Shown here: piece after piece, positions 5,624 to 46,556 of the stretch
Layout: the number at the start of each line of letters is the position of its first letter
Numbering within the stretch: position 1 is the first letter of the stretch
Assembly: GCA_036378675.1 (NCBI GenBank)
Contig: DASUWA010000042.1
Location: 1-46,564 of the forward strand
Source of the DNA: Acidimicrobiales bacterium
GTDB taxonomy: Bacteria; Actinomycetota; Acidimicrobiia; Acidimicrobiales; Palsa-688
Reading direction: 5' to 3'
DNA length: 46,564 nucleotides
Position numbers and translations under genes: made by a program
Notes under the pieces: model-generated
Told to the model about the DNA's origin: nothing
The model's input: only the letters and a program-made list of their open reading frames with translations
Databases searched by the model: none

Positions 5624-6252
5624 CCACTCGCGTGGAGGCGCTGCAACACCGACGAATCGCCCTTCGACCGCAGGCCCCGCCGCCGCGCTTCCCCGATCGA
5701 CAGCCGACCTGACAAGACGCCCAGCATCAACGACGGCGGCCCCTCGAGCACAAGATCCGGCGATGAACCCGCGCCCAGGCGCGTGTTGACCTCTCCGCCT
5801 GTCACCTCGATGACAGCGGGTCCATCCTCGGTTCTCACCTCGATCTCCAGCGGACCGCCACCTGGGTCGCTGTCCGAGAGGAACTCGGACACTGGAAACG
5901 TCAACCAGTGGTTCCGGAACTCTTCATCACCGGTGGGCTGGATCATGAAACGAACTCCCCAACGCCCGAGTGCCCTGATCGCCGGTTCGAGCTCTCTTCC
6001 GTCGTCTGTGAGGTGGTAAAGCGTCGTCGCAACCGGGGGCGGTGCCGCCTCCCTCCTGACCAATCCAGCGGTCTCCAGTTCGCGGAGACGCTCGGTGAGC
6101 AAGTTGGTTGCGATCCCGGGTAGCCCGTTCACCAAATCGGTGTACCGGCAGCCCCCGCGAATCAGGAGCTCCCGGACAATGAGCAGCGTCCATCGATCGC
6201 CAACCACGTCAAGCGCCTTTGCCACCGAGCAGTACTGGCCGTAGGAACGCAT
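5620..6252 (-). CDS. HxlR-family regulator with SCP2-like C-terminal domain
   Basis: A 210-residue regulator. Residues about 5-100 are a HxlR winged helix (YCSVAKALDVVGDRWTLLIV, then RYTDLVNGLPGIATNLLTER and a wing ending at YHLTDDGREL). HxlR proteins are about 110 residues; here a second domain of about 100 residues follows, ending in SLMLGVLSGRLSIGEA, which resembles the sterol-carrier (SCP2)-like lipid-binding domain found in some actinobacterial HxlR proteins. It may sense a hydrophobic ligand. It is divergent from the MFS efflux gene with an 80-base gap, so it probably controls that pump and itself. A TAGACT hexamer 6 bases before the ATG predicts a leaderless transcript. Confidence 0.85.
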   Translation of the reverse strand: MRSYGQYCSVAKALDVVGDRWTLLIVRELLIRGGCRYTDLVNGLPGIATNLLTERLRELETAGLVRREAAPPPVATTLYHLTDDGRELEPAIRALGRWGVRFMIQPTGDEEFRNHWLTFPVSEFLSDSDPGGGPLEIEVRTEDGPAVIEVTGGEVNTRLGAGSSPDLVLEGPPSLMLGVLSGRLSIGEARRRGLRSKGDSSVLQRLHASG

Positions 6253-6258
6253 GAGCGG

Positions 6259-6264
6259 AGTCTA
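6259..6264 (-). promoter_or_regulatory. -10 hexamer of a leaderless promoter (hxlR-type gene)
   Basis: Read on the minus strand this is TAGACT, followed by CCGCTC and the ATG at 6252. No Shine-Dalgarno is present. The -35 region is not recognisable. Confidence 0.5.
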
Positions 6265-6296
6265 TCCGGATGTGACTAGAGATACACACGTTCTTG

Positions 6297-6311
6297 CTTG
6301 ACTTTTTCAAG
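6297..6311. promoter_or_regulatory. inverted repeat over the -35 box: candidate HxlR operator
   Basis: CTTGA (6297-6301) and TCAAG (6307-6311) form an inverted repeat with a 5-base spacer that covers the -35 box (6298-6303) of the efflux gene. A regulator bound here would block RNA polymerase. That the HxlR protein is the binder is inferred from its divergent position. Confidence 0.45.
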
Positions 6312-6326
6312 GACGACGGCTAGAAC
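6298..6326 (+). promoter_or_regulatory. promoter of the MFS efflux gene, leaderless
   Basis: TTGACT (6298-6303), a 17-base spacer and TAGAAC (6321-6326) form a sigma-70-type promoter. The -10 ends 6 bases before the ATG at 6333, so transcription should begin at the start codon. No ribosome-binding site is seen, which agrees with leaderless translation. Confidence 0.65.
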
Positions 6327-6332
6327 CGACGT

Positions 6333-7928
6333 ATGCGCTCGAAGGCCGTCGTCCTGACCTCGTTGCTGCTGGCATCCTTCGCGATCAATCTCGACACCAC
6401 GATCGTGAACGTCGCATTGCCATCGCTGGTTCGGGAGCTGCATGCGACGACGACCCAACTGCAATGGGTCGTGGACGCTTACAACCTGGTGTTTGCAGCC
6501 CTGCTGCTGACTTCGGGAAGCTTGTCGGACCGGTTTGGGAGAAAGGGCATGCTCCTGGCGGGGTTGGGCGTGTTCGGGCTCGCCAGCCTGGTGGGTGGTT
6601 TCACCGATACTCCGGCTGAGCTCATAGCCGCCCGAGCGGTGATGGGGCTTGGGGCCGCGATGATCTTTCCCGCCACCCTTTCGCTGATCGCCAACGTGTT
6701 CACGGAACGTCGTGAGCGTGCGGCCGCGATCGGTTTGTGGGGGGCAAGCGCCGGCGTCGCCATAGCCCTGGGCCCGATCGTGGGCGGCTGGCTGCTCGAG
6801 CATTTCTCGTGGTCGAGCATCTTCTACGCGATGGCCCCCGTAGCCGCCGTCAGTGCGGCACTCGTAGCCATAAGTGTCCCAACGTCGCGGGACCTGAAGG
6901 CTCCTCGGGTCGACCTCGCAGGTTTCGTCCTGTCCACTGCGGCGATGGCGGTCGTCGTGTACACGATCATCGAAGCGCCCGACTACGGGTGGGCGAGCTC
7001 AAGGAGCGTGGCGGGCTTCGCAGGGGCAGCGGTGCTGTTCGCCTTGTTCATCGGCACCGAGCGCAGGAGCGCGGCTCCAATGCTCGACGTGCGGCTGTTC
7101 CGCAACCTCCGCTTCACCGCCGCCAGCGGCTCGGTAACGGTGGCGTTCTTCTCGCTCTTCGGCTTCATCTTCTTGATGACCCAGTACTTCCAGTTCATCC
7201 GCTCTTACGGTCCACTTTCGACGGGCGTTCGGCTGCTCCCGGTTGCCACATCGGTCGCGGTCGGATCGGTTATCGGCACCCGCATGGCGGTGCGAGTAGG
7301 GACGAAGCTCGTCGTAACCGTTGGGCTGCTCGCCGTCGCCGCCTTTTACGCCTGGGTCGCGAGCGTTATCTCCCTCACTACCGGTTACGGAACGATCGCC
7401 GCGCAAATGGTCCTGTACGGGATCGGGATGGGATTCACCTCGGCTCCGGCGACGGAATCGATCATGGGAGCGGTCTCGAAGGACAAGGCGGGGGTCGGCT
7501 CCGCTGTCAATGACGCCACCCGGTTGCTCGGAGGAACGCTTGGGGTCGCCGTCATAGGTTCGGTGTTCTCCTCGTTATACGGCCGCCGGCTGTCGGCTCG
7601 TCTCCCGGCGCGCTTTCCGGCGGCTCTGTCACACGCAGCCCACCAGTCCATCGGCGCCGCACTAACCGTCTCGTCCCGTTTGAACGCAGCGGGACGGCCC
7701 GCGCTCGGGAATGCGGTGCATCACGCAGCATCGAGCGCTTTCATCCATGGACTGATCGTGGGGTGCGTGGTGGCGGGAGGCGTGGCCGCGGCGGGTGCGC
7801 TCGTAGCCGCTCGCTTCTTGCCGGCCCAACCGCCCACGGTCGCCGATGTTGACACCATCACTACGGCCGCTCCCGAGATCGCCGATCCCGTCCGAGGGGA
7901 CCTCGGTTCGATCGCCCTGGAATCCTGA
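6333..7928 (+). CDS. DHA2-family MFS multidrug efflux transporter (14 TM)
   Basis: A 531-residue inner-membrane proton-driven efflux pump of the EmrB/QacA (DHA2) type. The first segment contains NLDTTIVNVALPSL, with the membrane-embedded aspartate of the family; motif A is GSLSDRFGRKG in the loop after TM2, and the antiporter motif is seen around LGPIVGGWLLEHFSW. Length and hydrophobic pattern fit 14 membrane segments. The C-terminal tail is short and acidic. It is divergent from the HxlR gene and likely controlled by it through the inverted repeat over its -35 box. The exported compound is unknown; the neighbouring oxidoreductase operon may make or modify it, but this is a guess. Confidence 0.92.
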   Translation: MRSKAVVLTSLLLASFAINLDTTIVNVALPSLVRELHATTTQLQWVVDAYNLVFAALLLTSGSLSDRFGRKGMLLAGLGVFGLASLVGGFTDTPAELIAARAVMGLGAAMIFPATLSLIANVFTERRERAAAIGLWGASAGVAIALGPIVGGWLLEHFSWSSIFYAMAPVAAVSAALVAISVPTSRDLKAPRVDLAGFVLSTAAMAVVVYTIIEAPDYGWASSRSVAGFAGAAVLFALFIGTERRSAAPMLDVRLFRNLRFTAASGSVTVAFFSLFGFIFLMTQYFQFIRSYGPLSTGVRLLPVATSVAVGSVIGTRMAVRVGTKLVVTVGLLAVAAFYAWVASVISLTTGYGTIAAQMVLYGIGMGFTSAPATESIMGAVSKDKAGVGSAVNDATRLLGGTLGVAVIGSVFSSLYGRRLSARLPARFPAALSHAAHQSIGAALTVSSRLNAAGRPALGNAVHHAASSAFIHGLIVGCVVAGGVAAAGALVAARFLPAQPPTVADVDTITTAAPEIADPVRGDLGSIALES

Positions 7929-29809: not shown

Positions 29810-30996
29810 ATACTTATTCCCTCGCGCGCGGGCCCAGCATCCCAAGTGGTGTCTGCATCGGCCCACCGGCGCCATATTTCGTCTGGGCTCACCTTCCAGC
29901 TCCTGCTGCTTTTGAGCCGAGAACCGATCGCCCACGGCAACTTCTCGACTAGATCGACCCGGGCTCTGGCGTCACCCAAATCGCGGAAAGCATTGATCGC
30001 AAGCTCTGCAGGGATCTTGAATGGCGCGTTTCGGAGGAGGGTGAGCAGGCGGTTCCGGGTCGCCAACCGGTTCACGAACAAGGCGGAACCGCCGCTGGTC
30101 GCTGAGTGCAGGTGCTCCACTTTGGCATGCGGTTCGTAGAGCACTCGCATGCCTCGCAGCCTCGCTCTCCAGCACCAGTCTGCATCTTCGTAGTACGCGA
30201 AGAACGGTTCGGCTAGGCCGCCGATTTCGTCGAATACTTCGCGACGCATCACCATCGCCGTAGCGCTGGCGAAGAACGGCTCCGAAGGGGTATCCCACCT
30301 GCCGTCATCGGGGGTCCCGTCGCCGATGTCGCCCAGGACCCCGTCGGACTTCATGTAACCGCCCGCCTTGTTCAGAAGGCGGCAGACTGGCCCGGGCCGA
30401 GCTGGATCACCGTTGATCAGAACCTCGTCCTCTGGCGTCGCGACAGGTACGTAGAAGGGTGCTCCAGGCACCGTCCACCGCCATTTCGGCGTCAACGGAT
30501 CGTCCCCTTGCTCCAGCGAATGAATTCCTGCGCCCAGAAGACGGTCGAGGGATTCCACGCCAGCCGCCGTCACCGAACGCAGCATCCGCCCCAATGAGCG
30601 ATGATCTGCCGGAGCATCGTGGCGATCTTCGAGAATGACCTCCCGGTACAGGCCGCGTCTGAGGACCTTCGGGACCACTGCGGCGACATCGGCACCTTTG
30701 ACGACTTGAAGGGACTGGTTGATCCAACCCGGATGAGGAAAGGCGTCATCGTTGAGCAACGCAATCACATCACCGCTCGATCGGCTGACCCCCAGGTTCA
30801 CTCCAGCAGCGAATCCGACGTTGCTCCTCAGTCCGATGACGGTGGCGTTGTACTTGGTGGCGATCGTCGAAGCCTCTGCCCGGTCCGAACCGTTGTCGAC
30901 CACCACCAGCTGATCAACTTGATCGGAGACCGACTTGAGGCACGCGTCCAGCCAGTTGTCAGGACGGTACGACAGGACAACTGCGGATACCGTCAC
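29806..30996 (-). CDS. family 2 glycosyltransferase (rhamnosyltransferase-like)
   Basis: A 396-residue GT-A enzyme. The start is the GTG at 30996, whose GTGA overlaps the stop of the upstream gene. SAVVLSYRPDNWLDACLKS and VVVDNGSDRAEA form the nucleotide-binding start, LRSNVGFAAGVNLGVS and ALLNDDAFP carry the DxD-like motif, and FFAYYEDADWCWRARLRG is the EDxDxxxR acceptor region typical of the rhamnosyltransferase-like GT2 group. An unusually long insertion of about 110 residues lies between the DxD and acceptor motifs. It is the last gene of the eight-gene polysaccharide operon. Confidence 0.88.
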   Translation of the reverse strand: MTVSAVVLSYRPDNWLDACLKSVSDQVDQLVVVDNGSDRAEASTIATKYNATVIGLRSNVGFAAGVNLGVSRSSGDVIALLNDDAFPHPGWINQSLQVVKGADVAAVVPKVLRRGLYREVILEDRHDAPADHRSLGRMLRSVTAAGVESLDRLLGAGIHSLEQGDDPLTPKWRWTVPGAPFYVPVATPEDEVLINGDPARPGPVCRLLNKAGGYMKSDGVLGDIGDGTPDDGRWDTPSEPFFASATAMVMRREVFDEIGGLAEPFFAYYEDADWCWRARLRGMRVLYEPHAKVEHLHSATSGGSALFVNRLATRNRLLTLLRNAPFKIPAELAINAFRDLGDARARVDLVEKLPWAIGSRLKSSRSWKVSPDEIWRRWADADTTWDAGPAREGISI

Positions 30997-33365
30997 GCCG
31001 GCGCCGGCCAAAGGTTCAACTCCGGTACCTGGGTCCAGATGCATCCGGCGGCGCGGCCGAATCCGTTCTCGCCCGCAAATGCGTGGGACTTCGCCACCAG
31101 GTCATTGTCGCCGGACAGGTCCAGAAGCTTGTCCAAGGCCAACGCCAGAACTTCCGGCGGGGCGTCCGGAGCCACCTTGGGAATGAAGGCGGGAAGCTCG
31201 GATTGTGGGCCAATCCTTGAAACCAGGGTCGGCAAGCCGTGTGCGACGCAATCAGCGACCGCCGCAGACGACTCTCCGTTCGAGTACTCGCGCAGCTGAA
31301 CGGCAGCCGCGGCGCAACGTAACCAGGATTCGTAGTCAGCGTCCGTCACTTCGCCGGTTATGGTCAGCCGACTTCTTACCTCTAGCTGCTCGGCAAGTGC
31401 TTCGATCTCATCCTTAAGCTGTTCCGAGACTGGTCCCACCAGAGCAAGGCGTGCGTTAGGACGGCGACGTGCCAACAAAGGCAGCGCCTCGACCAACGCC
31501 GATGGCCGCTTGACGGGATGAACCACCCCGAAGCTGCATACCAGGTCGCGATCCACCGATCCTGGATTGCGTTCAACCGGCCGAGGATAGGCAAACGGAC
31601 ACAGCCGAACTCGGTCCGACCATTCGGGACCGGCGTCCGCGCGCGCCAGCTCGAAGGCGAACTCGGAGTTCACGATCAGACTGTCGGCGAGCCGAGCGAC
31701 GTCTCGAACCATGGAAACGTCGGCGCGACTCATGGCCTCGAAGAGGTTCCCATCGAAAGTTAGGTCGGGCGACACGGAGTGGTACACACCGAGGACGGCC
31801 GCCTCTAATCCTTCAGGAACTGCGCCGCGGCTAACCCCGTGCACATACAGGCCATCCAGCCGAACATCGTGGGTGAGCACGTGTGCATGCAATCCGCCAC
31901 GGCGAAGCAGCTTCAACGCTCCACCGTGATATTCGCTGTTGCCGATCGCAAGCAAGACCGCGTCGTAACCCCCTACGGCCAGATCCCTGTGCTTGAGCTG
32001 GCTGTTGGAATGGAAAGAAAGGCTCGGAGACTCGCGGACGGGCTCGGTCGCTTGGATCGTCGTCTCGGCGAGGTCGCCGTCTACTGCGACCTCGATGTCC
32101 GCATAAGGCTCCATTGCTTCGGCCAGTCGCTGGCTGTAGTCTGCCACGCCCGTTCGGGCTGGTGGCCAGGGCGTCACCATGGCGATTCGTGGTCGTGGCC
32201 TCCATCGGTGCTGCGGAACCCCTGTGTCGCGGAGCAAGCCCTCGTAAACCTTCGCGCACTTGTCAGCTACATCCGACCATGTCGGAGTTGGGCGTTCTGC
32301 CCAGGCCAAAAGCTCGTCTCGCCGTGCCCGGTCGACGAGCGCTCTCGTAATCGCCTGAGCGATCGCAGTTGCATCCGTCGGATCGAATGTCGCGCCCGGC
32401 GCAACCAGTTCGGGCAGAGAAGAGGTCTCGGACGCAATCACCGGTGCGCCGCACGCGAGGGCCTCTGCAACGGGAAGTCCATATCCCTCGTATAGGGATG
32501 GATACACCGCCAGGTCTGCCGCCTGGTAGAGAACTTTGAGAGTGGTGTCGGGAACGAACCCGGTCAGGACGAGCCGATCCGCGATACCTAGCTGCGCAGC
32601 TCGCACCTCGAAGTGGTTCCGTTCGCTGGGCTTCAGACGACATACGAGGACCAGCTGCCATCCTTCGCGGACCGGTTCGGGCGTCGCCGCGTAGGCCTCC
32701 ACCAGCTTCTCCATGTTCTTCCGGGGTTCCACTGCGCCGTTGAACACGATGTAAGGCCCGGCGAGTTCAGGCACAAGAGCTTGAGCGGCTGCGGCCGCTT
32801 TCAAACGATCCTCTGCTGGACGAAAGTCCCCTGACGGTGCCGCGCCAACGACCGACACCTGCGACTCCGATAGACCGAGGAGACGTACGGCATCGGCAGC
32901 TGCGGAATCCGAAAGAGTCACCACGTGGTCTGCGGCCCGGACGAACTCTCGACGAGCCCGATAACGCCGGCGAACGCCGGGATCGCGAAGATAAGTATCG
33001 GAGAAGATCTCGGGAATGAGGTCGTACAGAGTCACCACGAGCCGCATGCCGCGTCGAGAGACCTCACGGGGCCAAAGCTCAGAAAGAGGAACGTCAAGCT
33101 CGAACGCCGACAGCACGTGGAACACTCCGCCACCGGCTGGCCACTCGGGGTTGTGCCCAACAGGGACGGATCCGATGAGCCCGTTCGGGAGTTCAACAGG
33201 CGGCAACCGAGGATTGAGCAGCACCTGTCTCACCAGGCCTGGATGTGCCTGAGCGACCGCCTCGGTGAACTCGAGAGCGTAGCGAGCGATGCCCCGGTCC
33301 CTGTATTGCGGACTCTGGGCGGCCTGCAGGTCTATTACGACGCCCGGGCCGGACGATCGGCTCAA
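30993..33365 (-). CDS. double GT4 glycosyltransferase fusion
   Basis: A 790-residue protein with two complete GT-B modules. Module 1 (about 5-380) has GIARYALEFTEAVAQ, YIVFNGAVEPRKNMEKLVEAY and VYPSLYEGYGLPVAEALACGAPVIASETSSLPE, very like mannosyltransferases of the WbaZ/mtfB type. Module 2 (about 390-790) begins IAMVTPWPPARTGVADYS and has VCSFGVVHPVKRPSALVEAL and EYSNGESSAAVADCVAHGLP. Two linked transferases could add two successive sugars, as in bifunctional O-antigen mannosyltransferases; that is inference. The start is a TTG whose TTGA overlaps the stop of the coiled-coil gene before it. The stop overlaps the next gene by 4 bases. Confidence 0.88.
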   Translation of the reverse strand: MSRSSGPGVVIDLQAAQSPQYRDRGIARYALEFTEAVAQAHPGLVRQVLLNPRLPPVELPNGLIGSVPVGHNPEWPAGGGVFHVLSAFELDVPLSELWPREVSRRGMRLVVTLYDLIPEIFSDTYLRDPGVRRRYRARREFVRAADHVVTLSDSAAADAVRLLGLSESQVSVVGAAPSGDFRPAEDRLKAAAAAQALVPELAGPYIVFNGAVEPRKNMEKLVEAYAATPEPVREGWQLVLVCRLKPSERNHFEVRAAQLGIADRLVLTGFVPDTTLKVLYQAADLAVYPSLYEGYGLPVAEALACGAPVIASETSSLPELVAPGATFDPTDATAIAQAITRALVDRARRDELLAWAERPTPTWSDVADKCAKVYEGLLRDTGVPQHRWRPRPRIAMVTPWPPARTGVADYSQRLAEAMEPYADIEVAVDGDLAETTIQATEPVRESPSLSFHSNSQLKHRDLAVGGYDAVLLAIGNSEYHGGALKLLRRGGLHAHVLTHDVRLDGLYVHGVSRGAVPEGLEAAVLGVYHSVSPDLTFDGNLFEAMSRADVSMVRDVARLADSLIVNSEFAFELARADAGPEWSDRVRLCPFAYPRPVERNPGSVDRDLVCSFGVVHPVKRPSALVEALPLLARRRPNARLALVGPVSEQLKDEIEALAEQLEVRSRLTITGEVTDADYESWLRCAAAAVQLREYSNGESSAAVADCVAHGLPTLVSRIGPQSELPAFIPKVAPDAPPEVLALALDKLLDLSGDNDLVAKSHAFAGENGFGRAAGCIWTQVPELNLWPAPA

Positions 33366-35496: not shown

Positions 35497-35924
35497 GATT
35501 TGCTTGAAGGGTCTCGATGTTGTGTGTGTTCGATGCGCTCGATCCGGGCGGCCAGATTGTCCAACCTGGCGTCCAGTTCCTTCGTCGAGGACTCGAGTCC
35601 GTCGAGCCGATCAACTATCTCGCTGCCTAGTCGGGTGAGTGCTTGCCCGAGGGCGGTCACCTGAGCAGCTACGTAGCGGATGTACCAACGAAGTAGCCGT
35701 TTTACCAAACGCTTGAGGTACCTGGCGGCGACGTCCGGTGAGTCGGTCGGAACTTCGACATCGATGTCGGTCAGATCTTCGGCGTCCGCTAGGGCGTCTC
35801 GGGCGGCTTGAGGTCCGGCCTCACGGACGGCGAGGCGCCCGGCTGCCCGCCGTACTTCTTCGACGTATCGCCGATCCAACTCGCCAAGATCCCGCAACCG
35901 GCTCTCCGCTGAATCGTCGCTCAT
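35493..35924 (-). CDS. 143-residue coiled-coil protein next to wzt
   Basis: A small protein starting at ATG 35924, whose ATGA overlaps the wzt stop. Residues 1-75 are charged and partly disordered. Residues about 78-100 (RYLKRLVKRLLRWYIRYVAAQV) form a basic amphipathic or membrane-grazing helix, and 100-140 are a coiled coil with clear heptads (LGSEIVDRLDGLESSTKELD, then LDNLAARIERIEH). A basic helix plus coiled coil between an O-antigen ABC transporter and a glycosyltransferase is what one expects of a scaffold or chain-length part. No enzyme motif is present. Confidence 0.7.
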   Translation of the reverse strand: MSDDSAESRLRDLGELDRRYVEEVRRAAGRLAVREAGPQAARDALADAEDLTDIDVEVPTDSPDVAARYLKRLVKRLLRWYIRYVAAQVTALGQALTRLGSEIVDRLDGLESSTKELDARLDNLAARIERIEHTQHRDPSSKS

Positions 35925-37132
35925 TCGGTTACGAGGTCGCCGATTCGCCACTTCGGGGATAGCGAGACAACGCCGGCGTTTTCAACTAGGGGACCTCGAT
36001 CGACGTCGAACCGGAGCACGTTCTGCCGAACGTCGTATGGGTGCATGCAGTGGTAATCGTGCAACGAAACGGTCAGGTCGTAAGAACCTGGCAGCAAAAC
36101 AACCGGGTCAAAATTGATATCGACGTGGCCCGAACCGTGCAACTTCTCGGGGACGCATCCGGCGTCACGACTCGAGGGGGCGGTCACCTGAAAACCCTCG
36201 AGAGTGGAGATAGAGAACCCGAAAACGGGCGTGTCGATCGGCGAGTCGATCTGATACTCGAGTCGGAGTGTCGCCGGCTCGCCCGAGCGAATCGTCGTGG
36301 TCTGATCTCCATTCCCGGCCACAAAGGCCACGCCGGTGATCCGCCCCTCGCCCGAACCCCAACGTGTGTGTCCGTCTTCGTCTAGCTGGCGATCTGAGTG
36401 GATGGTTCCGGTGTAGCTCTCGATTACTTCCCGGGGGTTACCGATTTGCATGACCTGTCCGTGCGAGAACCACGCCACTCGATCGCAGAGGTTCTGGACT
36501 GCGTACAAGCCGTGGCTGACAAGCACGATGGTCTTGCCGGCTTGCTTGAGCTGGGCAAACTTCTCGTTGCACTTTCTCTGAAAGGCCTCATCGCCTACCG
36601 CAAGGACTTCGTCGACGAACAACACATCCGGGTCGACGTTGATGGCGACGGAGAACCCGAGGCGGACATACATGCCGGAGGAGTAGTTCTTCACCGGTTC
36701 GTCGATGAACTGGTGAATACCTGAGAAGTCGACGATGTCGTCGAACCGCTTCCGCAATTCCTTCTGCGACAGTCCGAGTATCGCGCCATTCAAAAACACG
36801 TTCTCACGACCGGATAGCTCCGGATGGAAGCCCGCTCCCAGCTCGAGGAGAGCCGAGACTTTGCCTTGAACGCCGACACTGCCGCGATCTGGCCTGAGGA
36901 TCTTCGTGAGGCACTTCAGCATCGTGCTCTTGCCCGATCCGTTCTCTCCGATTAGACCGAACGTCTCGCCTTGATACACGTCGACCGATACATCTCTGAG
37001 TGCCCAGAAATCTTCGGAAACGGTTCGACGACCTCGTACAAGGGCGGCCTTGATCGAGTTGTTCCGCTCGTGAACGAGCTTGAACTTCTTCCAAACTCCG
37101 TCTGCCTGGACGGCGATCGGCCGGTCGCTCAC
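35921..37132 (-). CDS. wzt: polysaccharide ABC transporter ATPase with C-terminal glycan-binding domain
   Basis: A 403-residue ATPase of the Wzt/TagH type. The start is GTG 37132 in a GTGA overlap with wzm. Walker A is GENGSGKST (62-70), the signature is YSSGMYVRLG (150-159), Walker B is VLFVDEVLAVGD (170-181), and the switch histidine is H207. Such transporters are recognised by the long N-terminal lead (VWKKFKLVHERNNSIK). Residues about 245-403 are a beta-sandwich like the C-terminal domain of Wzt O9a, which binds the capped end of the glycan before export. Its presence predicts that the exported chain carries a terminal modification. Confidence 0.93.
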   Translation of the reverse strand: MSDRPIAVQADGVWKKFKLVHERNNSIKAALVRGRRTVSEDFWALRDVSVDVYQGETFGLIGENGSGKSTMLKCLTKILRPDRGSVGVQGKVSALLELGAGFHPELSGRENVFLNGAILGLSQKELRKRFDDIVDFSGIHQFIDEPVKNYSSGMYVRLGFSVAINVDPDVLFVDEVLAVGDEAFQRKCNEKFAQLKQAGKTIVLVSHGLYAVQNLCDRVAWFSHGQVMQIGNPREVIESYTGTIHSDRQLDEDGHTRWGSGEGRITGVAFVAGNGDQTTTIRSGEPATLRLEYQIDSPIDTPVFGFSISTLEGFQVTAPSSRDAGCVPEKLHGSGHVDINFDPVVLLPGSYDLTVSLHDYHCMHPYDVRQNVLRFDVDRGPLVENAGVVSLSPKWRIGDLVTE

Positions 37133-37944
37133 AGTTCCTCGGCCAACCCACCCTCTAGCCGGTTGAACACCCACCTTCCGATAAGGAACGTCCCCACGGC
37201 AAACGCTACGAAATAAAGAAGCTCGAACGGACCGGGATAGGTGCCCTGGTAGAGGGTTGCGCGGAATGAGAGGGCTGCGTCGGTCATCGGGTTGAGTTTC
37301 AGTAGGTCAATGACCCAGGTTTTGGCGGAGCTTCCCAGCGTCGCGAACGAGTAGACGATCGGCGTCATGAAGAACCAAACGAGGAACAGGATCCCCATGA
37401 AGTGCTCAATGTCCCGGAAGTACACGTTTAAGGCGCTCAGCGCCAAGCCGAGCCCCAGCGCGAAGACAGCAACGACAAGGATGAGAAATATGGTCACTGG
37501 GAGGTAAGGAATCGCCCGCCAGTCGCCAAATGCCAGGAGCGCCACTATCAAGAGCGACATCTCGATGGCGTGCGACACAAGGTTGCCCATCACAACCGAA
37601 GCAGGCAACAACTCCCGCGGAAAGTAGGTCTTCTTGATCAGGTTGGCGTTACCGGTCAAGCTCCCGATGCTGCCCATAACGCTGCTCTGGAAGTAGCTGA
37701 ACGGCAACATGGCGCAAAGCAGAAAGAGGGCGTACACGTTAAGACCGCTGGGCTCGGCCTTAAGGATTTTGACGTGCATGAAGTACTTGAATACGACTGT
37801 ATAGACGACCAGGTAGACAACCGGGTTGACTAGGGACCAGCCCCACCCGAGCGCTGATCGTTTGTACTTGGACCGCAGCTCTCTAAGCGTCAGATTCGAC
37901 AGTAATTCGCGATGGGAGCGGTAATCCGCAATGGTCGCGCTCAT
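37129..37944 (-). CDS. wzm: polysaccharide ABC transporter permease
   Basis: A 271-residue inner-membrane protein with six membrane segments of the ABC-2/Wzm-TagG type. TLRELRSKYKRSALGWGWSLVNPV is the N-terminal amphipathic coupling motif, and FFMTPIVYSFATL lies before the last segments. With Wzt it forms the pump that moves a lipid-linked glycan across the membrane. GAAG lies a few bases before the ATG. It is the first gene of the eight-gene operon that runs to 29806; a 12-base palindrome lies 22 bases upstream. Confidence 0.93.
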   Translation of the reverse strand: MSATIADYRSHRELLSNLTLRELRSKYKRSALGWGWSLVNPVVYLVVYTVVFKYFMHVKILKAEPSGLNVYALFLLCAMLPFSYFQSSVMGSIGSLTGNANLIKKTYFPRELLPASVVMGNLVSHAIEMSLLIVALLAFGDWRAIPYLPVTIFLILVVAVFALGLGLALSALNVYFRDIEHFMGILFLVWFFMTPIVYSFATLGSSAKTWVIDLLKLNPMTDAALSFRATLYQGTYPGPFELLYFVAFAVGTFLIGRWVFNRLEGGLAEEL

Positions 37945-38088: not shown

Positions 38089-38700
38089 TCACTTGGCCTT
38101 GGGCTCGGCGACGTCCGCAGCGGTTTCGATCACCGCGTCTATGAACCCATAGTCCTTGGCCTCTTCGGCCGTGAACCAACGGTCACGATCCGAGTCCGCC
38201 TCGATCCGCTCCACGGGCTGTCCGGTGTGGTAAGCGATGCGCTCGGCCATCATTCGCTTCAGATACACGATCTGCTCTGCCTGAATCGCGATATCGGCGG
38301 CCTGGCCGCGCGCTTGTCCCGAAGGCTGGTGCATCAGAATCCGCGAATGAGGAAGCGAAAAACGCTTACCTTTTGCCCCCGCACACAGCAAAAACTGCCC
38401 CATTGATGCGGCCAAGCCAAGACAGACGGTGGACACGTCACAGGGGACGAATTGCATGGTGTCGTATATGGCCAGTCCAGCCGTAACCGAGCCCCCGGGT
38501 GAGTTGATGTACAGGCTGATGTCGCGATTCGAATCCTCTGCGGCTAGAAGGAGGAGCTGGGCGCAGATCAGGTTGGCGTTGGCGTCGTCAACCTCGGTGC
38601 CTAGGAATACGATCCGCTCCCTTAGCAGGCGTTGATAGATGTCGCTCGACCGGTCGCCGGCGAACTGGGCGGTAGCAATCGGAAGGGGCGTGCTGGACAT
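38089..38700 (-). CDS. clpP: ATP-dependent Clp protease proteolytic subunit
   Basis: A 203-residue ClpP, the normal length. The catalytic triad is serine in GLAASMGQF, histidine in LMHQPSG and aspartate in [27 protein letters not shown] and the N-terminal [16 protein letters not shown] are typical. ClpP forms a fourteen-subunit chamber that degrades proteins fed by ClpX or ClpC. Actinobacteria usually have a clpP1-clpP2-clpX cluster; here a single gene stands between a polysaccharide operon and a tRNA gene, so it may be an extra paralogue. A TACCCT hexamer 6 bases before the ATG predicts a leaderless message. Confidence 0.95.
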
Positions 38701-38912: not shown

Positions 38913-40403
38913 ATGCCGAGACATACCGCCGCCTTGCGCCTGGCCTCGTCAACTTGTGAGGGCGAAGGTGGCGTCTCCCCTTTGTCCCGGACGGGATGGT
39001 GGATCGCTGCTCTGGTTTTCGGAGCCGCTGCGTTGCTTGAAGTGCAAGGTCAACGAGGATTCCAAGTCGATGACGTCGGCATCTTCTATCGGTATGCCGA
39101 AAACCTAGCCTCGGGTCACGGCTGGACTTACAACCTAGGTCGGCACGATCCAGGCGGAATAACTTCTCCCCTATACGTCATTTTGCTGGCATTGCTTTCG
39201 AAGCTCGGATTTACAATCCCAGGCGCGGCGACTCTGATCTTTGCGATCGGAACCGGTGGTGCCTCGGTGCTTCTGTTTCGATCAATGAGCAAAGTAGGCC
39301 ACCCAATAGGGGGGCTGAGTGCCGGAATTCTCATCGTAACCTCGCCGTGGCTCGTTGCGGTTCGCGGTATGGAATCTGCGTTGATGCTGGGTTTGCTGGC
39401 ACTATCAGTTTGGCTTTACCTGGAAGACAGATATATTCCTTGTGGCTTCGCCCTTGGATTTCTGGTACTCACGCGTCCCGACTCAATCTTTTTCGCTGTG
39501 TCTTTGGGCCTGTACCACCTTGTTCGCAAGCGGCAAATACCCTGGCGAATCGTTATTCCAGCCAGTGGGGTCGTTGGCGTTTGGATTGTCTACGCGGCCA
39601 TCGCCGTCGGAGTGATTGTGCCGGACACCCTTAGGTCCAAGATCGACGAGTCGCGAATTATCGACCCTCACAGTGCTCACGAATTCTTCCGAGGCTTCTG
39701 GCAAGACCCGACCTTTGAGGGGTTTCGGGTTTGGGCTGCGATGGTGGGCGGCCTCGCAGTTGTTGGCGTTGCTGCTTTCTTCTGGCGCCGTTGGAAACTC
39801 GATGCCGTCGTCACCACACTCGTTCTCGGCTCAGCCCTCCTCCTGCTCTTCTACGACGTCATTCTGAACCTTGCCCAGTGGTGGATCTGGTACTACGTAC
39901 CGTTTGTGTACACAATCTGTGCTCTCGCTGGGCTGGCAACGGAAGGGCTCTTAACCGCCTCTCTGAATCGATTACACAAACAGTCCATAGCGACAGCACT
40001 CCTACTCACGATCGTCGTCTCAGTGACCGGTGTTACTTCCACACCGCGAGGCTGGCAGCAGCTGAGGGCGAGCTACATTCTGGCTGCCACCTGGGTGCGA
40101 GCACACTCGTTTCGCGAGGACTCAGTTGCTTCTTCCGAGATCGGCTTGATCGGATGGTATTCGCAACGACGCATGATCGATTCCCTTGGATTATTTACTC
40201 CGTCTCTAGATGAAGAATTCGTACACCACAGATGGCTGTACTGGGTAAGGCATTATCCGCCAACTTTCTACATCGTTCCTGTTGGCGGTGGATGGCCATG
40301 GGACGTTGCGCTGGAGAAGCAACAATGGTTCGGTTCTACATTTATTCTGTGCTATCGGTCACCAGCAGCTCTGGTCTACCGTCGGATAGCACCTGTGCAA
40401 TAG
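38913..40403 (+). CDS. polytopic membrane glycosyltransferase, GT-C (AftB-like)
   Basis: A 496-residue protein with about ten membrane segments. After TM1 the loop VDDVGIFYRYAENLASGHGWTYNLG, with its two aspartates, followed by GGITSPLYVILLALL, is the pattern of the GT-C family that includes the mycobacterial arabinofuranosyltransferase AftB and other enzymes using polyprenyl-phosphate sugars. The C-terminal part after the last segment (residues about 385-496) is a soluble domain. The arabinose donor made by the DprE1/DprE2 operon in this window could be its substrate, which is inference. TACAGT at 38898-38903 may be a -10 box 9 bases before the ATG. The gene looks less GC-rich than the left half of the window. 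Confidence 0.7.
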   Translation: MPRHTAALRLASSTCEGEGGVSPLSRTGWWIAALVFGAAALLEVQGQRGFQVDDVGIFYRYAENLASGHGWTYNLGRHDPGGITSPLYVILLALLSKLGFTIPGAATLIFAIGTGGASVLLFRSMSKVGHPIGGLSAGILIVTSPWLVAVRGMESALMLGLLALSVWLYLEDRYIPCGFALGFLVLTRPDSIFFAVSLGLYHLVRKRQIPWRIVIPASGVVGVWIVYAAIAVGVIVPDTLRSKIDESRIIDPHSAHEFFRGFWQDPTFEGFRVWAAMVGGLAVVGVAAFFWRRWKLDAVVTTLVLGSALLLLFYDVILNLAQWWIWYYVPFVYTICALAGLATEGLLTASLNRLHKQSIATALLLTIVVSVTGVTSTPRGWQQLRASYILAATWVRAHSFREDSVASSEIGLIGWYSQRRMIDSLGLFTPSLDEEFVHHRWLYWVRHYPPTFYIVPVGGGWPWDVALEKQQWFGSTFILCYRSPAALVYRRIAPVQ

Positions 40404-41073: not shown

Positions 41074-43047
41074 GTGGATGATGTAAACACACCCTCGACT
41101 GCCTTCGCCGTCTCAGTCGTCATGACTGTCTCCAGCGATTTAGACGCCGCGGTTGAGAATGCCGCGCGCATGGTTGAGATAGATGGAGACCTCATAGCCG
41201 AATTCATCTGCGTTGATCGGAGCCCCGCGAGGGCCTCTGAGCGCGTGCATAACTCGCGAGGCCGGGGCCCATTCCAGTTCCTCGCGTTAGGTCCTGACAG
41301 GAGCATCGGAGAAGCCGGGAACTTAGGGGTCGAGACAACGTCAAGTGACCTAGTCCTGCTACTGGACGATCAGGTAGTCGTGGAGCCGCACTGCATAGAA
41401 CGCCTCGGCCAAAGCCTGCTGGGTCATGCTAACTACGGCGCTGTCGGACCTGTGATTCTCGACCAGTACGGTCAGGTCCAGGAGATTGGTGGCCGTGTAT
41501 CGAGGAACGGCGAAATTGTTCAGATCGGGGGAGGATCCGACTGGTCCGAAGTTCGACTAAGCAATGATTTGGCCGTCGATTATTGCTCGGCGTCGTGTCT
41601 CCTGGTCAGAAGGAATGAATTCATTCGGGTGGGCGGCTTCTCCTTCGAATGGGAGCTCGGTGGTTACGAAGACGTCGATCTCTGCCGGCGGCTCCGGCAG
41701 GAAGTCGGACCGGTCGTCGTGAATCCGCTCGCCCATGTTGTCCGAACCCACGCGGGAGGCACGAGACGACCTGAGGTAGAAGCCGAAGCCAATCGACTTC
41801 TCTTCGTCACCAAGTGGCAAGATCACAAATCGACTCTCCTCACCCGCGTTACAGAAGATGTCCAAACCGGCTCATGCCGAGTCGATCGCACAGAACCAAC
41901 AGAACCCGGGACTGAAGATAGCCTCACCAGCGCAAGGGATGTTCGGCCCGGTGGCAGTGCGCTTCTCTATACGCCTTATGAATTCGTGCCCGGCGGCGGT
42001 GAACGTTTCCTCCTTGAGCTCGCGTCAGTCCTTTCTGAGAACCTTGGGCAGCGAAATGTCCACATGGCCTTCCCCTTCCCCTACAGCAATCTCCGAATGC
42101 GCCAGATCAATGACGCATTAGGAATGTCCACCTCGATCCGTGCTACGACGCTGGGAAGTTCGGTCGCCGAAACTTGCGACATAATGGTGGTCCTCGGAAA
42201 CCAAATAGTCCCTCCAGTAGCCGGGCGCGGGAAACGGCTAAATATTTTCATCTGCCAGTTCCCGTTTGAGGCTCCGGAGGAAGAGATCCGCTCCCGAGCG
42301 GGGTACCTTGCGACATTTGACGAGATATGGGTCTACTCGCAATTCGTGCGCCGTTACGTAAGCGGTTACCTCCGCCTGTTGGACCTCCCTGCGACCAGCG
42401 TGCGGGTGGTATATCCGCCGGCGACACTCCCAACGCCCGCCAGGTTGCCGAGTTGGCCCGATCGGAAATTGGTTCTCTCTGTTGGACGATTCTTCGAGGG
42501 AGGTCACAACAAACGCCAGGACGTGGTGATCGAGATCGTCAAGCGGCTCTCTCAGAAACACGGTGCGCCAATTTCCTTGGCGCTTGGGGGCTCGCTACAC
42601 GCCACTGCAAGCTCACGAGCTCGTTTCAATGAGCTCGTCGAAATGGCCAAGGGGTGCGACTGTCGCTTCTATCCGAATGCCAATCGCCAGGAACTCTTGG
42701 ACCTGTACGCACAGTCGGGGGTCCTGATCCACGCGGCGGGCTATCAGGTTGACAAGTTTGCGCACCCCGAAGGCCTTGAGCACTTCGGCATCGCTCCTGT
42801 GGAAGCGGCGAGCGTCGGATGTATACCACTGGTTTACGACGAAGGCGGGCCGGCGGAGGTCATGGATCTTCTTGGCTGCCCCACCACTTTTCACTCGATT
42901 CCCGAGGCTGTTGACCAACTCGCTGGTCTACTTGCCGATCCAAACGGCTCCGCGGCGTTGAGCGAGGAGCTCATTCGGAGATCGACTACTTTCTCCACAG
43001 GCATGTTTCGAACTCGAGTAAACGAGGCCCTGACGAGCCTTCTGTGA
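41074..43047 (+). CDS. GT2-GT4 fusion glycosyltransferase
   Basis: A 657-residue two-module enzyme. The N-terminal GT-A domain (about 10-260) has VSVVMTVSSDLDAAVENA, LVLLLDDQVVVEP with the DD metal motif, and FSFEWELGGYEDVDLCRRLRQ. After a linker of about 35 residues the GT-B domain (about 295-657) begins ALLYTPYEFVPGGGERFLLE and has LVLSVGRFFEGGHNKRQDVV and HFGIAPVEAASVGCIPLVYDEGGPAE, characteristic of GT4. The GT2 DxD region reads LDDQ, which is normal for this group. It is preceded by the stand-alone coiled-coil protein and faces the five-domain protein, ending 11 bases from its stop. Confidence 0.87.
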   Translation: MDDVNTPSTAFAVSVVMTVSSDLDAAVENAARMVEIDGDLIAEFICVDRSPARASERVHNSRGRGPFQFLALGPDRSIGEAGNLGVETTSSDLVLLLDDQVVVEPHCIERLGQSLLGHANYGAVGPVILDQYGQVQEIGGRVSRNGEIVQIGGGSDWSEVRLSNDLAVDYCSASCLLVRRNEFIRVGGFSFEWELGGYEDVDLCRRLRQEVGPVVVNPLAHVVRTHAGGTRRPEVEAEANRLLFVTKWQDHKSTLLTRVTEDVQTGSCRVDRTEPTEPGTEDSLTSARDVRPGGSALLYTPYEFVPGGGERFLLELASVLSENLGQRNVHMAFPFPYSNLRMRQINDALGMSTSIRATTLGSSVAETCDIMVVLGNQIVPPVAGRGKRLNIFICQFPFEAPEEEIRSRAGYLATFDEIWVYSQFVRRYVSGYLRLLDLPATSVRVVYPPATLPTPARLPSWPDRKLVLSVGRFFEGGHNKRQDVVIEIVKRLSQKHGAPISLALGGSLHATASSRARFNELVEMAKGCDCRFYPNANRQELLDLYAQSGVLIHAAGYQVDKFAHPEGLEHFGIAPVEAASVGCIPLVYDEGGPAEVMDLLGCPTTFHSIPEAVDQLAGLLADPNGSAALSEELIRRSTTFSTGMFRTRVNEALTSLL

Positions 43048-43058
43048 ACGCGGCCGAT

Positions 43059-46000
43059 TTACTCGTCGAGGACCTTTTCGTGTTTTCGAGCCACGACCCA
43101 TATTCCTGACGCGACCGCTTTCAGCGAGTCATGATCGACGAGCTCATCCAGTGACGAAAGACGGCTCCGCCACTCCTCCCTCTCGACGGCATCCATCTTG
43201 TCGGTAATGCCGGCTGCGTCCATGATCCAATTGATCGTGAATGAAAGTGGCCCAAACCAATCTGACTCTTCGATGGAGCACGATTCCTTGAAGAGTTCTT
43301 CGGTGCCCCAGCCGGTCATATTGTAAAAGTGGTAGGGCACGGCGTGCAACGGCTGCATGAATGCAACCTCGGTCAGAATTAGGCCACCTGGCTTGCATAC
43401 CCGGATCATCTCTTGTGCAACGGCACGAGGATTCGCCAAGTGCTCAAACACCGCCTGGCTCAAGACCAGGTCAAAGGTGCTGTCGTCGAATGGAAGCCGA
43501 TGCAGGTCGGCACGCAGGTCGGCGCCCTCGTAGGGCAAGAATTCCAGGTTCAAGTGATTGGGTCGGCTCGACCTGCGGTCTCCACCACCACATTCCAGGA
43601 TTAGCTGGGTCGAATCGCACTGAGAGAGGTGTCGAGTGATCCGCTCGCTATAAGTGTTGGCTCGAGCGAACGGGGCCGCACCCGAAAAGCGCAATCCAGA
43701 TTGTCTCGGTGCGAGTAGGACGAGTTCATCAACGTGGACATATGAGGCGGGCTCGAGCTTGATCACCTTTAGAACAATCTCGTGCGTCGCGAGCTCAAGA
43801 TCACTTTGGATATCTATAATCCGGCTGACCGAACCCAGAGTCGCCCGAGTGTCGAGGACGTGTGTTACGCGGCCGTCCACGATGACTTGCAGCGAACCGC
43901 CATGCTGATGATCGACGAGCCTCAGGCGAACATCGGTGCAGGGGCCACGGTAGGTGAGTGTCGCGCCCAATTCGGATGACGTCCAACAGTCAGGATGAAC
44001 GTTCCAGCCATCCGCCACCATCTCGTCACTGCGTCCAGAAATCCGGTATTCGCCAATCTCTCCCACGAATCGTGTTGGGGCCGGATCTGGTGGCTGCGAA
44101 ATAGGCTCCACCTCGGCAAACGTGATCTGGAAATTATCGATCCTGGCGACGTTCACCGAACAAGTCGGGCACCGCAGCGTTCCAGTCTTGACGCGACCGT
44201 CCTCGGTAGCAACGATGCTAATGACGTTCAGCAGTCCCCGGCACTGGGTGCACCGCAGAGCGTCGAGCAGTAGACGCTGCCGATCGGCCGCGACTTTAGT
44301 CCAGGGATGAATTTCCAATGACAGGTCCTCGGTGACTACTTCATTTCGCTGCTGGGGAACCCCTTCGAGGAGAGCTTGCACCGACGCTGCGACGCGTGCG
44401 GCCATCTGAGTGTCGGTGAACTTCTCCTCGTACGATCGACGGCCGTGGGCTCCCATCGATGCTCGAAGATCGGGGTCGTCGATCAGGCAACTCAGCGCCG
44501 ACGAGAGTGCGATTGTGTCGTCTGGTGGAACAAGAATTCCATCCAGGCCATCCCGTACCACCGAGATGACTCCATTTACCAAGCTCGACACCACGGGCTT
44601 CCCAAACCGCATCGCTTCGAGGTTGACCAAGCCGAACGACTCGAAGCGCGATGGGGCGACGAAGATGTCGCATCGTGCGAACGCTGCGATCAATTCGTCG
44701 TCCGCTATAGGCCCGAGGAACCGAACCTTTTGTTTCACGTCCGGAGGCTGACTGGATAGAAACTTCTCTTTGTAAGTGATCCCGTCAGGAGCGGGAGTTG
44801 AGTCATCTCCCGCAAGCGTGAACCGGACTTGCGGATGGCGAGCACAAAGCGCAGGAATAGCGGCCAACAGGGTGTCGATACCTTTGCGAGGCTCGAGTCG
44901 TCCGACGAAGAGAACCTCTACCCATTCATCCGAACCTATGCTCGGGGGAAGGTCGAGATCCGGAAGTCCTAGAGGGGCTAAACCGCGCTTCCAGCTCGGG
45001 ATTTGGGTCCCGTATAGGCGTTCCAACTCGTCAAACGTCGACGGGAAGGCGGCCATCACCAGGTCTGTAAGCTCATAGGTAGTACGATCCGCGTCAGCGA
45101 TTGCTCGCACGGATGCGTGACTTACATCGATTCGCGGATCGCTAGCTGCGACGGCAAGGATCGGGGTATATGCGAACAGAACCGACCTGAAGTGACGGTC
45201 GCCGACTACCGCAAGCCCTTCGGCATCCCAGTTGGGCAATTGCACGGCATCGACTCGATTAAGTCCATCTAGGCGTCTCAACTCATCAAGCACCGAACCC
45301 GACCAGTTCCATAGTTCGTCCGGCAGGTCGGGGACTGGAGACACTCCTTGATCGGTAGAAACGATCCGATGAACCCAAACTCCCTCTTCAAAGTCCACCG
45401 TGTTGTGGCCCGAACGACTGGCGGTGATGACATGGACGGTGTGGCCCTCAGACGCCATTGCCGTGGCGAGAGTGTGGTGGGCCCGTCCAATTCCATGGAC
45501 GGTGCCGGGAGGATATTCCCGGGTGACGATGCAGTAGCGAAGCCTTCGAGAGTACGGCTGGACTGTGGGGAAGCGAAGAAAATCGGCACTCCGTTCCTCA
45601 AACCAACGCTTAGGTCTGGTTCGAGCAGGTTTGGCTGCCCACTCATGCGCCAACCTCCACCCTTCGATCACGTCGACATCGAACTGGTGGAGCGACTGCG
45701 AAGCGGCTCGCCCCGCTTGAACGTGGTTCTCCAGATCCGCTCGTCGGCTCTTCGCAAACTGTGAGAAAGCCTCGGCCATCTCTAGCTCGTTGGACCTCTT
45801 AAGGCCGTGACGAATCGAAAAGTAAACGCGGCTGAGGATAACTCCGCGGTAGTCGACCGTCACACGGCCGTCATTGCGAATGTCGCTCGGAAGGAACTTG
45901 TGGTGAACGACGCCACGAAATTGTGGCAACACCCGATACCCGCGATCAATCAGCCGAACGCAGACATCGGTTTCGTCGAGATAGAAGGCGTAGGTTTCGT

Positions 46001-46556
46001 CGAATCCGCCTATTTCGACCAAGCGTTCGCGGACGAAGAGGCTGTTAGTCCCCATCGGGTACGGGAAAATCGGGGTGTCGGGGTGATCGAGATAATCGAG
46101 TCGCCGCGGTTCGAGTCCGACAGAGAAATCGCCCCAGCGATCAGCGAGGTTGTACAGGGCTTGAAAGCGGTGGCCTGAGTGGTCCATGACACAGCCGCCA
46201 GTTGCGGCCACCTCAGGATCAGAGAATGCCTCGATCAGATCGTCGAGCCAGCTCGCGTCTGGAAGCGCGTCGTCGTCAATGAACGCGACGATTGCGCCTG
46301 TAGCCGCGGCAATGCCGAGGTTCCGCGATGCCGACAGATTCCGCTCTGTGGTCAAGACAACCTTGATCTTCCCCTCGTACTGATCCAGAACGTCGCTGGT
46401 CTGGTCCGTACATGGCCCAGCGACGACGACGACCTCGAACGTCGAATAAGCGAGATGCTCTAAGGCTCTGAGAGTATTTCTCAGTGAGGCCGCTCGGTTA
46501 TAGGTACATATGATGACGGATACGAGCGGCTTGGTCACGCTTCTGTTGCCGCACAC
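43059..46556 (-). CDS. five-domain GT2-GT4-zinc ribbon-beta sandwich-methyltransferase protein
   Basis: A 1165-residue protein whose true start may lie beyond the window end; the GTG at 46556 and the GTG at 46538 (VTKPLVSVIICTYNR) are candidates. Domains in order: GT2 (about 8-250; SVIICTYNRAASLRNTL, AFIDDDALP, FYLDETDVCVRL); GT4 (about 340-745; YCIVTREYPPGTVHGIGR, VEVLFVGRLEPRKGIDTLLA, PSRFESFGLVNLEAMRFGKP); a Trm112-like zinc ribbon with two CxxC pairs (about 765-800); a beta-sandwich of carbohydrate-esterase or CBM type (about 835-950); and a type-11 methyltransferase (about 980-1165; LILECGGGDRR, LRADLHRLPFDDSTFDLVLS). The SAM loop is ECGGG, not the usual DLGCG type. It could add sugars and then methylate the chain. 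Confidence 0.85.
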   Translation of the reverse strand: MCGNRSVTKPLVSVIICTYNRAASLRNTLRALEHLAYSTFEVVVVAGPCTDQTSDVLDQYEGKIKVVLTTERNLSASRNLGIAAATGAIVAFIDDDALPDASWLDDLIEAFSDPEVAATGGCVMDHSGHRFQALYNLADRWGDFSVGLEPRRLDYLDHPDTPIFPYPMGTNSLFVRERLVEIGGFDETYAFYLDETDVCVRLIDRGYRVLPQFRGVVHHKFLPSDIRNDGRVTVDYRGVILSRVYFSIRHGLKRSNELEMAEAFSQFAKSRRADLENHVQAGRAASQSLHQFDVDVIEGWRLAHEWAAKPARTRPKRWFEERSADFLRFPTVQPYSRRLRYCIVTREYPPGTVHGIGRAHHTLATAMASEGHTVHVITASRSGHNTVDFEEGVWVHRIVSTDQGVSPVPDLPDELWNWSGSVLDELRRLDGLNRVDAVQLPNWDAEGLAVVGDRHFRSVLFAYTPILAVAASDPRIDVSHASVRAIADADRTTYELTDLVMAAFPSTFDELERLYGTQIPSWKRGLAPLGLPDLDLPPSIGSDEWVEVLFVGRLEPRKGIDTLLAAIPALCARHPQVRFTLAGDDSTPAPDGITYKEKFLSSQPPDVKQKVRFLGPIADDELIAAFARCDIFVAPSRFESFGLVNLEAMRFGKPVVSSLVNGVISVVRDGLDGILVPPDDTIALSSALSCLIDDPDLRASMGAHGRRSYEEKFTDTQMAARVAASVQALLEGVPQQRNEVVTEDLSLEIHPWTKVAADRQRLLLDALRCTQCRGLLNVISIVATEDGRVKTGTLRCPTCSVNVARIDNFQITFAEVEPISQPPDPAPTRFVGEIGEYRISGRSDEMVADGWNVHPDCWTSSELGATLTYRGPCTDVRLRLVDHQHGGSLQVIVDGRVTHVLDTRATLGSVSRIIDIQSDLELATHEIVLKVIKLEPASYVHVDELVLLAPRQSGLRFSGAAPFARANTYSERITRHLSQCDSTQLILECGGGDRRSSRPNHLNLEFLPYEGADLRADLHRLPFDDSTFDLVLSQAVFEHLANPRAVAQEMIRVCKPGGLILTEVAFMQPLHAVPYHFYNMTGWGTEELFKESCSIEESDWFGPLSFTINWIMDAAGITDKMDAVEREEWRSRLSSLDELVDHDSLKAVASGIWVVARKHEKVLDE

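Follow-up and report, generated by a model that had tools for sequence, protein, structure and literature searches.

What does a single bacterial protein do that joins two glycosyltransferases, a zinc ribbon, a β-sandwich and a methyltransferase? The question is raised by a gene at the end of the window, by which we mean the whole stretch of DNA that was analysed: the entire contig C42 (46,564 bases) of a 75-contig genome. The fused gene lies on the minus strand at 43059-46556 and encodes 1165 amino acids from a GTG at 46556; its frame is open to the contig end (46562), which it touches, and stops at 43059. A preliminary description made from the sequence had called this combination unusual and had suggested one machine that extends and then methylates a glycan.

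Domain composition of the fused protein

The domain order of the 1165-residue protein was found to be GT2, GT4, a two-CxxC ribbon, a jelly roll resembling a carbohydrate-binding module (CBM) and a class I methyltransferase (MT2). The GT2 domain (45891-46520, minus strand; residues ~13-222) matched Pfam PF00535 over residues 13-177 with an E-value of 8.5e-26 and 91.3 bits against a cut-off of 23.3. It carries YLDETD at 192 and IDDDA at 93, which we take to be the DxD-type motif of GT2. The GT4 domain (44379-45536, minus strand; residues ~341-726) matched PF00534 over residues 547-707 (E 2.2e-35, 122.2 bits against a cut-off of 26.4), while its N-terminal half matched PF13439 more weakly at residues 355-517, below the cut-off of that profile. 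ESFGLVNLE at 639 is presumably the E-x7-E motif of GT4. Both domains therefore carry the profile and the motif of their class.

The C-terminal domain is a class I SAM methyltransferase (MT2; 43074-43679, minus strand; residues ~960-1161) with GGGDRR at 990 and QPLHAVP. It matched PF08241 (Methyltransf_11) over residues 1014-1061, only the C-terminal half of the profile being covered (E 8.4e-13, 49.2 bits against a cut-off of 21.2). The MT2 motifs, GGGDRR included, were invariant in all seven aligned copies, two of which are near copies of each other. The methyltransferase part of the structural model gave Z ~12-14 against class I methyltransferases (VIA-align), so that the predicted fold agrees with the profile and the glycine-rich loop. 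A sequence search of the PDB (E 1) returned 46 chains, almost all of them aligned to the methyltransferase part, and the substrates of these enzymes are diverse, including those of LahSB and 6uv6 (molecule named D-glucose O-methyltransferase). Among the 25 listed of the 73 NCBIfam families matched, none reached its cut-off.

The zinc-ribbon-like segment (44112-44282, minus strand; residues ~759-815) was recognised in the sequence by C769, C772, C796 and C799. Pfam at E 1 gave no match of any kind, Trm112p included, to the ribbon and sandwich of the window protein. The Trm112p profile scored 14.3-16.2 bits, below its cut-off of 22, in all three stand-alone relatives scanned, and a PDB sequence match over the ribbon (6zxw, 0.0036) gave a weak hint. 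The ligands were CxxC/CxxC in the window, CxxC/CxxH in all five stand-alone copies compared and CxxC plus one Cys in the two fused relatives L077 and L078 described below. Four conserved ligands are not shared by all members, and because the fourth ligand varies, it is doubtful that every member binds zinc. In Trm112-ribbon methyltransferases, too, the ribbon precedes a class I methyltransferase; the window protein differs in having a jelly roll between the two. Among relatives from the phylum, L088 was read by eye as a plain ribbon-methyltransferase, and L085-L087, also read by eye, have another N-terminal domain followed by CxxC pairs and a methyltransferase. In view of these forms, MT2 looks like a ribbon-methyltransferase that gained a jelly roll.

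The jelly roll itself (43692-44066, minus strand; residues ~831-955) was assigned from model m7f9ef881904d and its structure matches. A fold from the single sequence (pLDDT 35) was useless, and the model from a seven-sequence alignment was used (mean pLDDT 70). In this model the sandwich is all-beta and among the best parts, with pLDDT 69-93 (blocks 81-190 of the model) and 51-75 for the ribbon blocks. VIA-align superposed 123 residues on the mannan esterase CEX 6hfz with Z 16.6 and an rmsd of 2.1; the aligned range in 6hfz (116-374) spans two domains. The matches to CE2 2waa (Z 14.1, aligned range 7-123), CBM35 2w1w (Z 12.3) and CBM36 1ux7 (Z 12.0) are clear. Together, the four structures were matched at Z 12.0-16.6 over 108-123 residues, as expected of a jelly roll. 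The window sandwich thus shares its predicted fold with CBM35, CBM36 and the N-terminal jelly rolls of CE2 but differs from them in sequence, with 10-15% identity in the alignments quoted and no Pfam match of its own. Foldseek also matched the sandwich to MiXBM 7ehg, which the sequence profile touches at E 0.069, a weak hint, and Pfam CE2_N appeared at E 0.05 in one relative only. Judging from the model, the sandwich is carbohydrate-binding-module-like. The order and the carbohydrate-binding-like sandwich of the preliminary description were thus borne out, the former by Pfam for GT2, GT4 and the methyltransferase, by the cysteines and by the predicted jelly roll.

It might be argued that the C-terminal half acts on a nucleotide sugar, a lipid carrier or a small glycolipid, and that the fusion does no more than bring enzymes of one cluster together. 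The varied substrates of the PDB methyltransferases that MT2 resembles, LahSB and 6uv6 among them, would allow this, and Trm112-type partners serve many substrates. However, the jelly roll, a CBM-type domain lying between ribbon and methyltransferase, suggests that the substrate is a glycan oligomer or polymer, and we consider this explanation unlikely.

Completeness, recurrence and rarity of the fusion

GT2 starts ~12 residues from the protein start in the window and ~6-10 residues from it in the relative L011 and in gene A of genome G423 (see below). As the N-termini of these relatives lie at about the same place, the window protein is probably complete, though its frame runs to the contig end; a fragment of a longer protein is disfavoured, since GT2 of the relatives likewise starts close to the N-terminus. 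No recognisable domain was found upstream of GT2 in any of the seven relatives with GT2-GT4. The frame in genome G242 has ~95 extra N-terminal residues, overlapping wzt.

A profile from a five-sequence alignment was searched against genome contigs and yielded seven loci, of which L080, L081 and L083 were taken as the same records as G277, G336 and G423, and L079 and L082 as near copies of L083. In L077 (Acidimicrobiaceae bacterium MAG) and L078 (Centralia_MAG_42), a single frame holds all five domains in unchanged order; it measures 1219 and 1213 codons from stop to stop, respectively, or 1183 and 1209 amino acids from the first start codon. Identity to the window protein was 40% over 1197 columns for L077 and 39% over 1217 for L078; between L077 and L078 it was 67% over 1209 columns. 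An assembly or frameshift artefact merging two neighbouring genes, which the preliminary description had named beforehand as fatal to its claim, is suggested by the position of the window frame at a contig end and by relatives with two genes. The same stop-free single frame in two other actinobacterial MAGs, at that distance from each other, rules out such a merger for the architecture, and an artefact is extremely improbable. By segment, window and L077 were identical at 49% in GT2, 43% in GT4, 16% in the linker, 37% in the ribbon, 28% in the sandwich and 51% in the methyltransferase. With the same order in both relatives, these values indicated conservation of the fusion but not of the linker.

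The fusion is seldom met in the samples searched. When the full protein was searched against 61 genomes (its own and 60 relatives; at most ~11 candidates scored per genome), only G019 besides its own matched across GT2 and GT4, through a 744-residue gene without the C-terminal half (42% identity over residues 13-724); the best matches of the other genomes had E-values of 1.2e-27 or weaker. A 421-residue C-terminal query matched 60 of 61 relatives, and among the matches listed all except the window's own lay within the methyltransferase, beginning no earlier than query residue 206. The profile of the C-terminal module (ribbon, sandwich and MT2) was matched at about full length in 5 of 395 genomes of the class, the window's own included, and in the methyltransferase only in four more; in the phylum it was matched in 1 of 396 genomes, the window's own, with four others in the methyltransferase only. 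A single-sequence contig search with the module returned 30 stretches and no relatives, and a plasmid search with ribbon and sandwich returned no matches. Ribbon and sandwich together matched 10 of 395 genomes of the class at E 0.01; nine of ten loci beside the window's own were inspected (L057 was left out and L053 gave no alignment), and the only true homologue was L054.

The split form in related genomes

Four genomes from the taxonomic order of the window genome (G277, G336, G423 and G242) were found to carry the parts as two overlapping genes, A and B. This split system has all five window domains, with the order kept within each piece, and differs in its two genes and in what gene A adds: gene A comprises GT2-GT4, a DUF4214-like region, a heptad-rich region and a second methyltransferase (MT1), and gene B comprises ribbon, sandwich and MT2. 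DUF4214 was above the cut-off in G277 and G336 and below it in G423 (three gene A copies scanned). For the four gene A copies, 0, 0, 2 and 19 of 300 shuffles scored as high in heptads as the region itself. At all four loci gene B starts within the last 4 nt of gene A (counted by hand from the start codon in G242). An apparent second fused copy in G242, an open frame of 1202 residues, was instead a stand-alone gene B, with gene A in another frame.

Split and fused forms are collinear, with identities of 37-40% in the glycosyltransferase part and 27-35% in the C-terminal module; the alignment for gene B of G277 covers 410 columns (E 2e-42). Trees of the two parts each set fused and split forms apart at 100/100; both trees are unrooted, with long-branch warnings and a long window branch, and give no direction between fusion and fission. 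The preliminary description had proposed looking for the same order elsewhere and for the domains as separate genes in relatives: single-frame copies in L077 and L078 answered the former, and genes A and B in four genomes of the same order the latter.

MT1 and the redistribution of parts

In L077 and L078 the fused gene has a small gene directly upstream, which in its C-terminal half is a homologue of gene A's MT1, with 34-39% identity in L077 and 29-33% in L078. By sequence comparison, the parts are dealt out either as (GT2-GT4-helical-MT1)+(ribbon-sandwich-MT2) or as (helical-MT1)+(GT2-GT4-ribbon-sandwich-MT2), the helical part of the small genes being putative. The heptad scores of the small upstream proteins were reached in 7 (L077), 91 (L078) and 48 (L011) of 300 shuffles. 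In an alignment read by eye, MT1 of both L077 and L078 departed from residues common to the four gene A copies at the acidic position of GDxRxLPF and in the EHxxEHF motif; in L078 the GxG loop was changed as well. Since the neighbouring MT1 has these changes, MT2 would be the intact methyltransferase of the pair in both loci. Pfam matches in ten ORFs near the two fused genes were limited to generic methyltransferases and histidine kinases, and several of the ORFs were spurious.

The window contig stops at the place expected for an MT1-type gene, and a search for MT1 homologues in the genome of the window and in G019 was negative. The C-terminal module was not found in the G019 genome either; because G019 has a GT2-GT4 gene without it, the pathway can do without MT2. 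Upstream of this gene, G019 has a 164-residue ORF of helical look and then a GDP-mannose-dehydratase-like ORF (named by eye).

Exporter genes

The window also contains possible export partners on the minus strand: a Wzm-type ABC permease (37129-37944; PF01061, E 9.5e-15) and a Wzt-type ATPase (35921-37174) with a Wzt_C glycan-reading domain at 35966-36370 (PF14524, E 1.2e-24). The fused gene lies ~5 kb from wzm/wzt on the same contig with two genes of the other strand between, and no operon is obvious. In the split form, each of the four genomes had a single Wzt_C match at a threshold of E 0.001, which lay just upstream of gene A and thus beside the biosynthetic gene in all four; the Wzt_C gene was directly upstream in three, and one ORF called by a greedy script intervened in G336. 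The sole Wzt_C match in the L078 genome was on another contig than the fused gene, and none was found in the L077 genome.

Comparison with known systems

According to PMC9445017, ABC-transporter glycans that depend on a terminal change receive a cap at the growing end, which may be a methyl group, a methyl phosphate or a special sugar; such caps, methyl caps among them, are recognised by the carbohydrate-binding domain of Wzt. WsaE of the Geobacillus stearothermophilus S-layer glycan consists of two glycosyltransferases and a 2-O-methyltransferase; wzm, wzt and wsaE overlap (PMC2943079). Methylation by WsaE is reported in review to have been independent of chain length in vitro. The window protein resembles WsaE in combining two glycosyltransferase domains and an O-methyltransferase in one polypeptide. 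Compared by description only, WsaE differs in its N-terminal methyltransferase, and the available part of its description does not mention a ribbon or a CBM-like sandwich.

According to PMC11231755, the modules in Klebsiella are distributed in varying ways among single-module and multimodule proteins; the paper gives O7 ORF6 as methyltransferase-kinase-CBM-coiled coil-GT2-GT2 and states that no chain-binding domain had been identified in terminators besides ORF6. ORF6 of Klebsiella pneumoniae O7, together with WbdD and WbbB, has in common with the window protein a methyltransferase, a CBM-like domain and glycosyltransferase modules united in one protein, and an ABC-transporter-dependent pathway. 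By description only, ORF6 differs in its kinase, coiled-coil ruler, C-terminal GT2 pair and methyl-phosphate cap, whereas the window protein begins with GT2 and GT4, contains a ribbon, gives no Pfam match to a kinase and leaves no space for a ruler in its linker. The last point follows from a crude script, by which the linker between GT4 and ribbon lacks any run of 35 residues free of proline in the window protein, L077 and L078. The coiled coil that lies between polymerase and terminating domain in WbdD/WbbB-type terminators was accordingly not detected by this script in the fused form; in the split form, gene A has its heptad-rich region.

The term unusual can therefore be kept for the exact domain order, of which no description was found in the open-licence papers searched, but not for the joining of a polymerase to a methyltransferase, which was already known. 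The protein is a polymerase-methyltransferase fusion, a known kind; its order, with ribbon and sandwich, is new.

Proposed function

We propose that the fused enzyme extends and methylates one cytoplasm-made envelope glycan for Wzm/Wzt export, with MT2 most likely capping the non-reducing end, a proposal to which we give an even chance of being right. GT2 and GT4 would add sugars to the growing chain, and the jelly roll would hold the chain near the C-terminal methyltransferase. MT2 would then O-methylate a chain sugar, most likely at the growing (non-reducing) end, and the methyl group would serve as a cap that stops growth and is read by the Wzt_C domain. The ribbon would most likely be structural, a Trm112-like support for the methyltransferase. 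The sugar substrates, the choice between cap and internal methylation, the role of the ribbon and the partnership with the window's Wzm/Wzt are matters that we infer. The single extending and methylating machine of the preliminary description remains, on our analysis, the best reading: the fused parts correspond to overlapping neighbour genes behind a Wzt_C exporter gene in four relatives, and WsaE is a documented precedent for extension and methyl capping in one polypeptide (PMC2943079).

Several observations count against the proposal: the linker of the fused protein has no stretch for a coiled-coil ruler by the crude script, the fused genes lie apart from wzm/wzt where these were found, the search of the window's genome gave no MT1 homologue, and G019 has a GT2-GT4 gene without the module. 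In the split form MT2 may act otherwise, because gene A already has MT1 behind its heptad-rich region, the usual place of a terminator. In the same pathway, MT2 could methylate internal sugars of the chain, or sugars of an adaptor region, and the MT1 protein or another enzyme could end the chain. This is possible but rather less probable than not: MT2 is joined straight to polymerase-like glycosyltransferases without a ruler, and in the systems reviewed in PMC11231755 a coiled coil carries the terminator at its distal end, but MT1 of L077 and L078 has changed motif residues where MT2 is intact. Capping is favoured over internal methylation, although the MT1 of gene A is genuine support for the latter. 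A bolder form of the capping proposal is a capping polymerase without a ruler, in which a clamp presenting the chain end to MT2 would set the chain length and the former MT1 would have decayed to a scaffold; we regard this form as improbable.

Collectively, the fused and split forms tie a ribbon-sandwich-methyltransferase protein, to which the family searches assigned no specific name, to an exporter and a pair of glycosyltransferases. This link gives the protein a testable function. It would extend the modular polymerase-terminator logic of enterobacterial O antigens and the Geobacillus S-layer glycan, with a putative chain-binding domain added, to little-studied actinobacteria.

In the genomes of loci L077 and L078, where the same five-domain order occurs in single frames, we inspected the copies of the second methyltransferase, MT1, that adjoin the fused genes (L077, positions 5607-6635; L078, positions 5572-6561). 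The alignment, read by eye, suggested that both copies are catalytically degenerate. Each of the two genomes also carried an additional MT1 paralogue (loci L095 and L096), and these loci further contained a frame with weak GT4 likeness. In the split form, gene A of L061 and L074 matched DUF4214 in the segment that separates GT4 from the heptad-rich stretch. Three relatives in the phylum (L085, L086, and L087), also read by eye, showed an N-terminal domain followed by a cysteine ribbon and a related methyltransferase, an order that differs from that of the fused protein.

In the window, a second two-domain GT2-GT4 protein (41074-43047, + strand; 657 aa) neighbours the fused gene, tail to tail. 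The Wzm/Wzt glycan cluster includes a 790-aa protein with two GT4 stretches (30993-33365, - strand) and a ClpP-type protease gene immediately preceding wzm (38089-38700, - strand). A 496-aa protein (38913-40403, + strand) showed weak likeness, scoring below the family cut-off, to the AZOBR_p60025 cell surface glycopolymer family.
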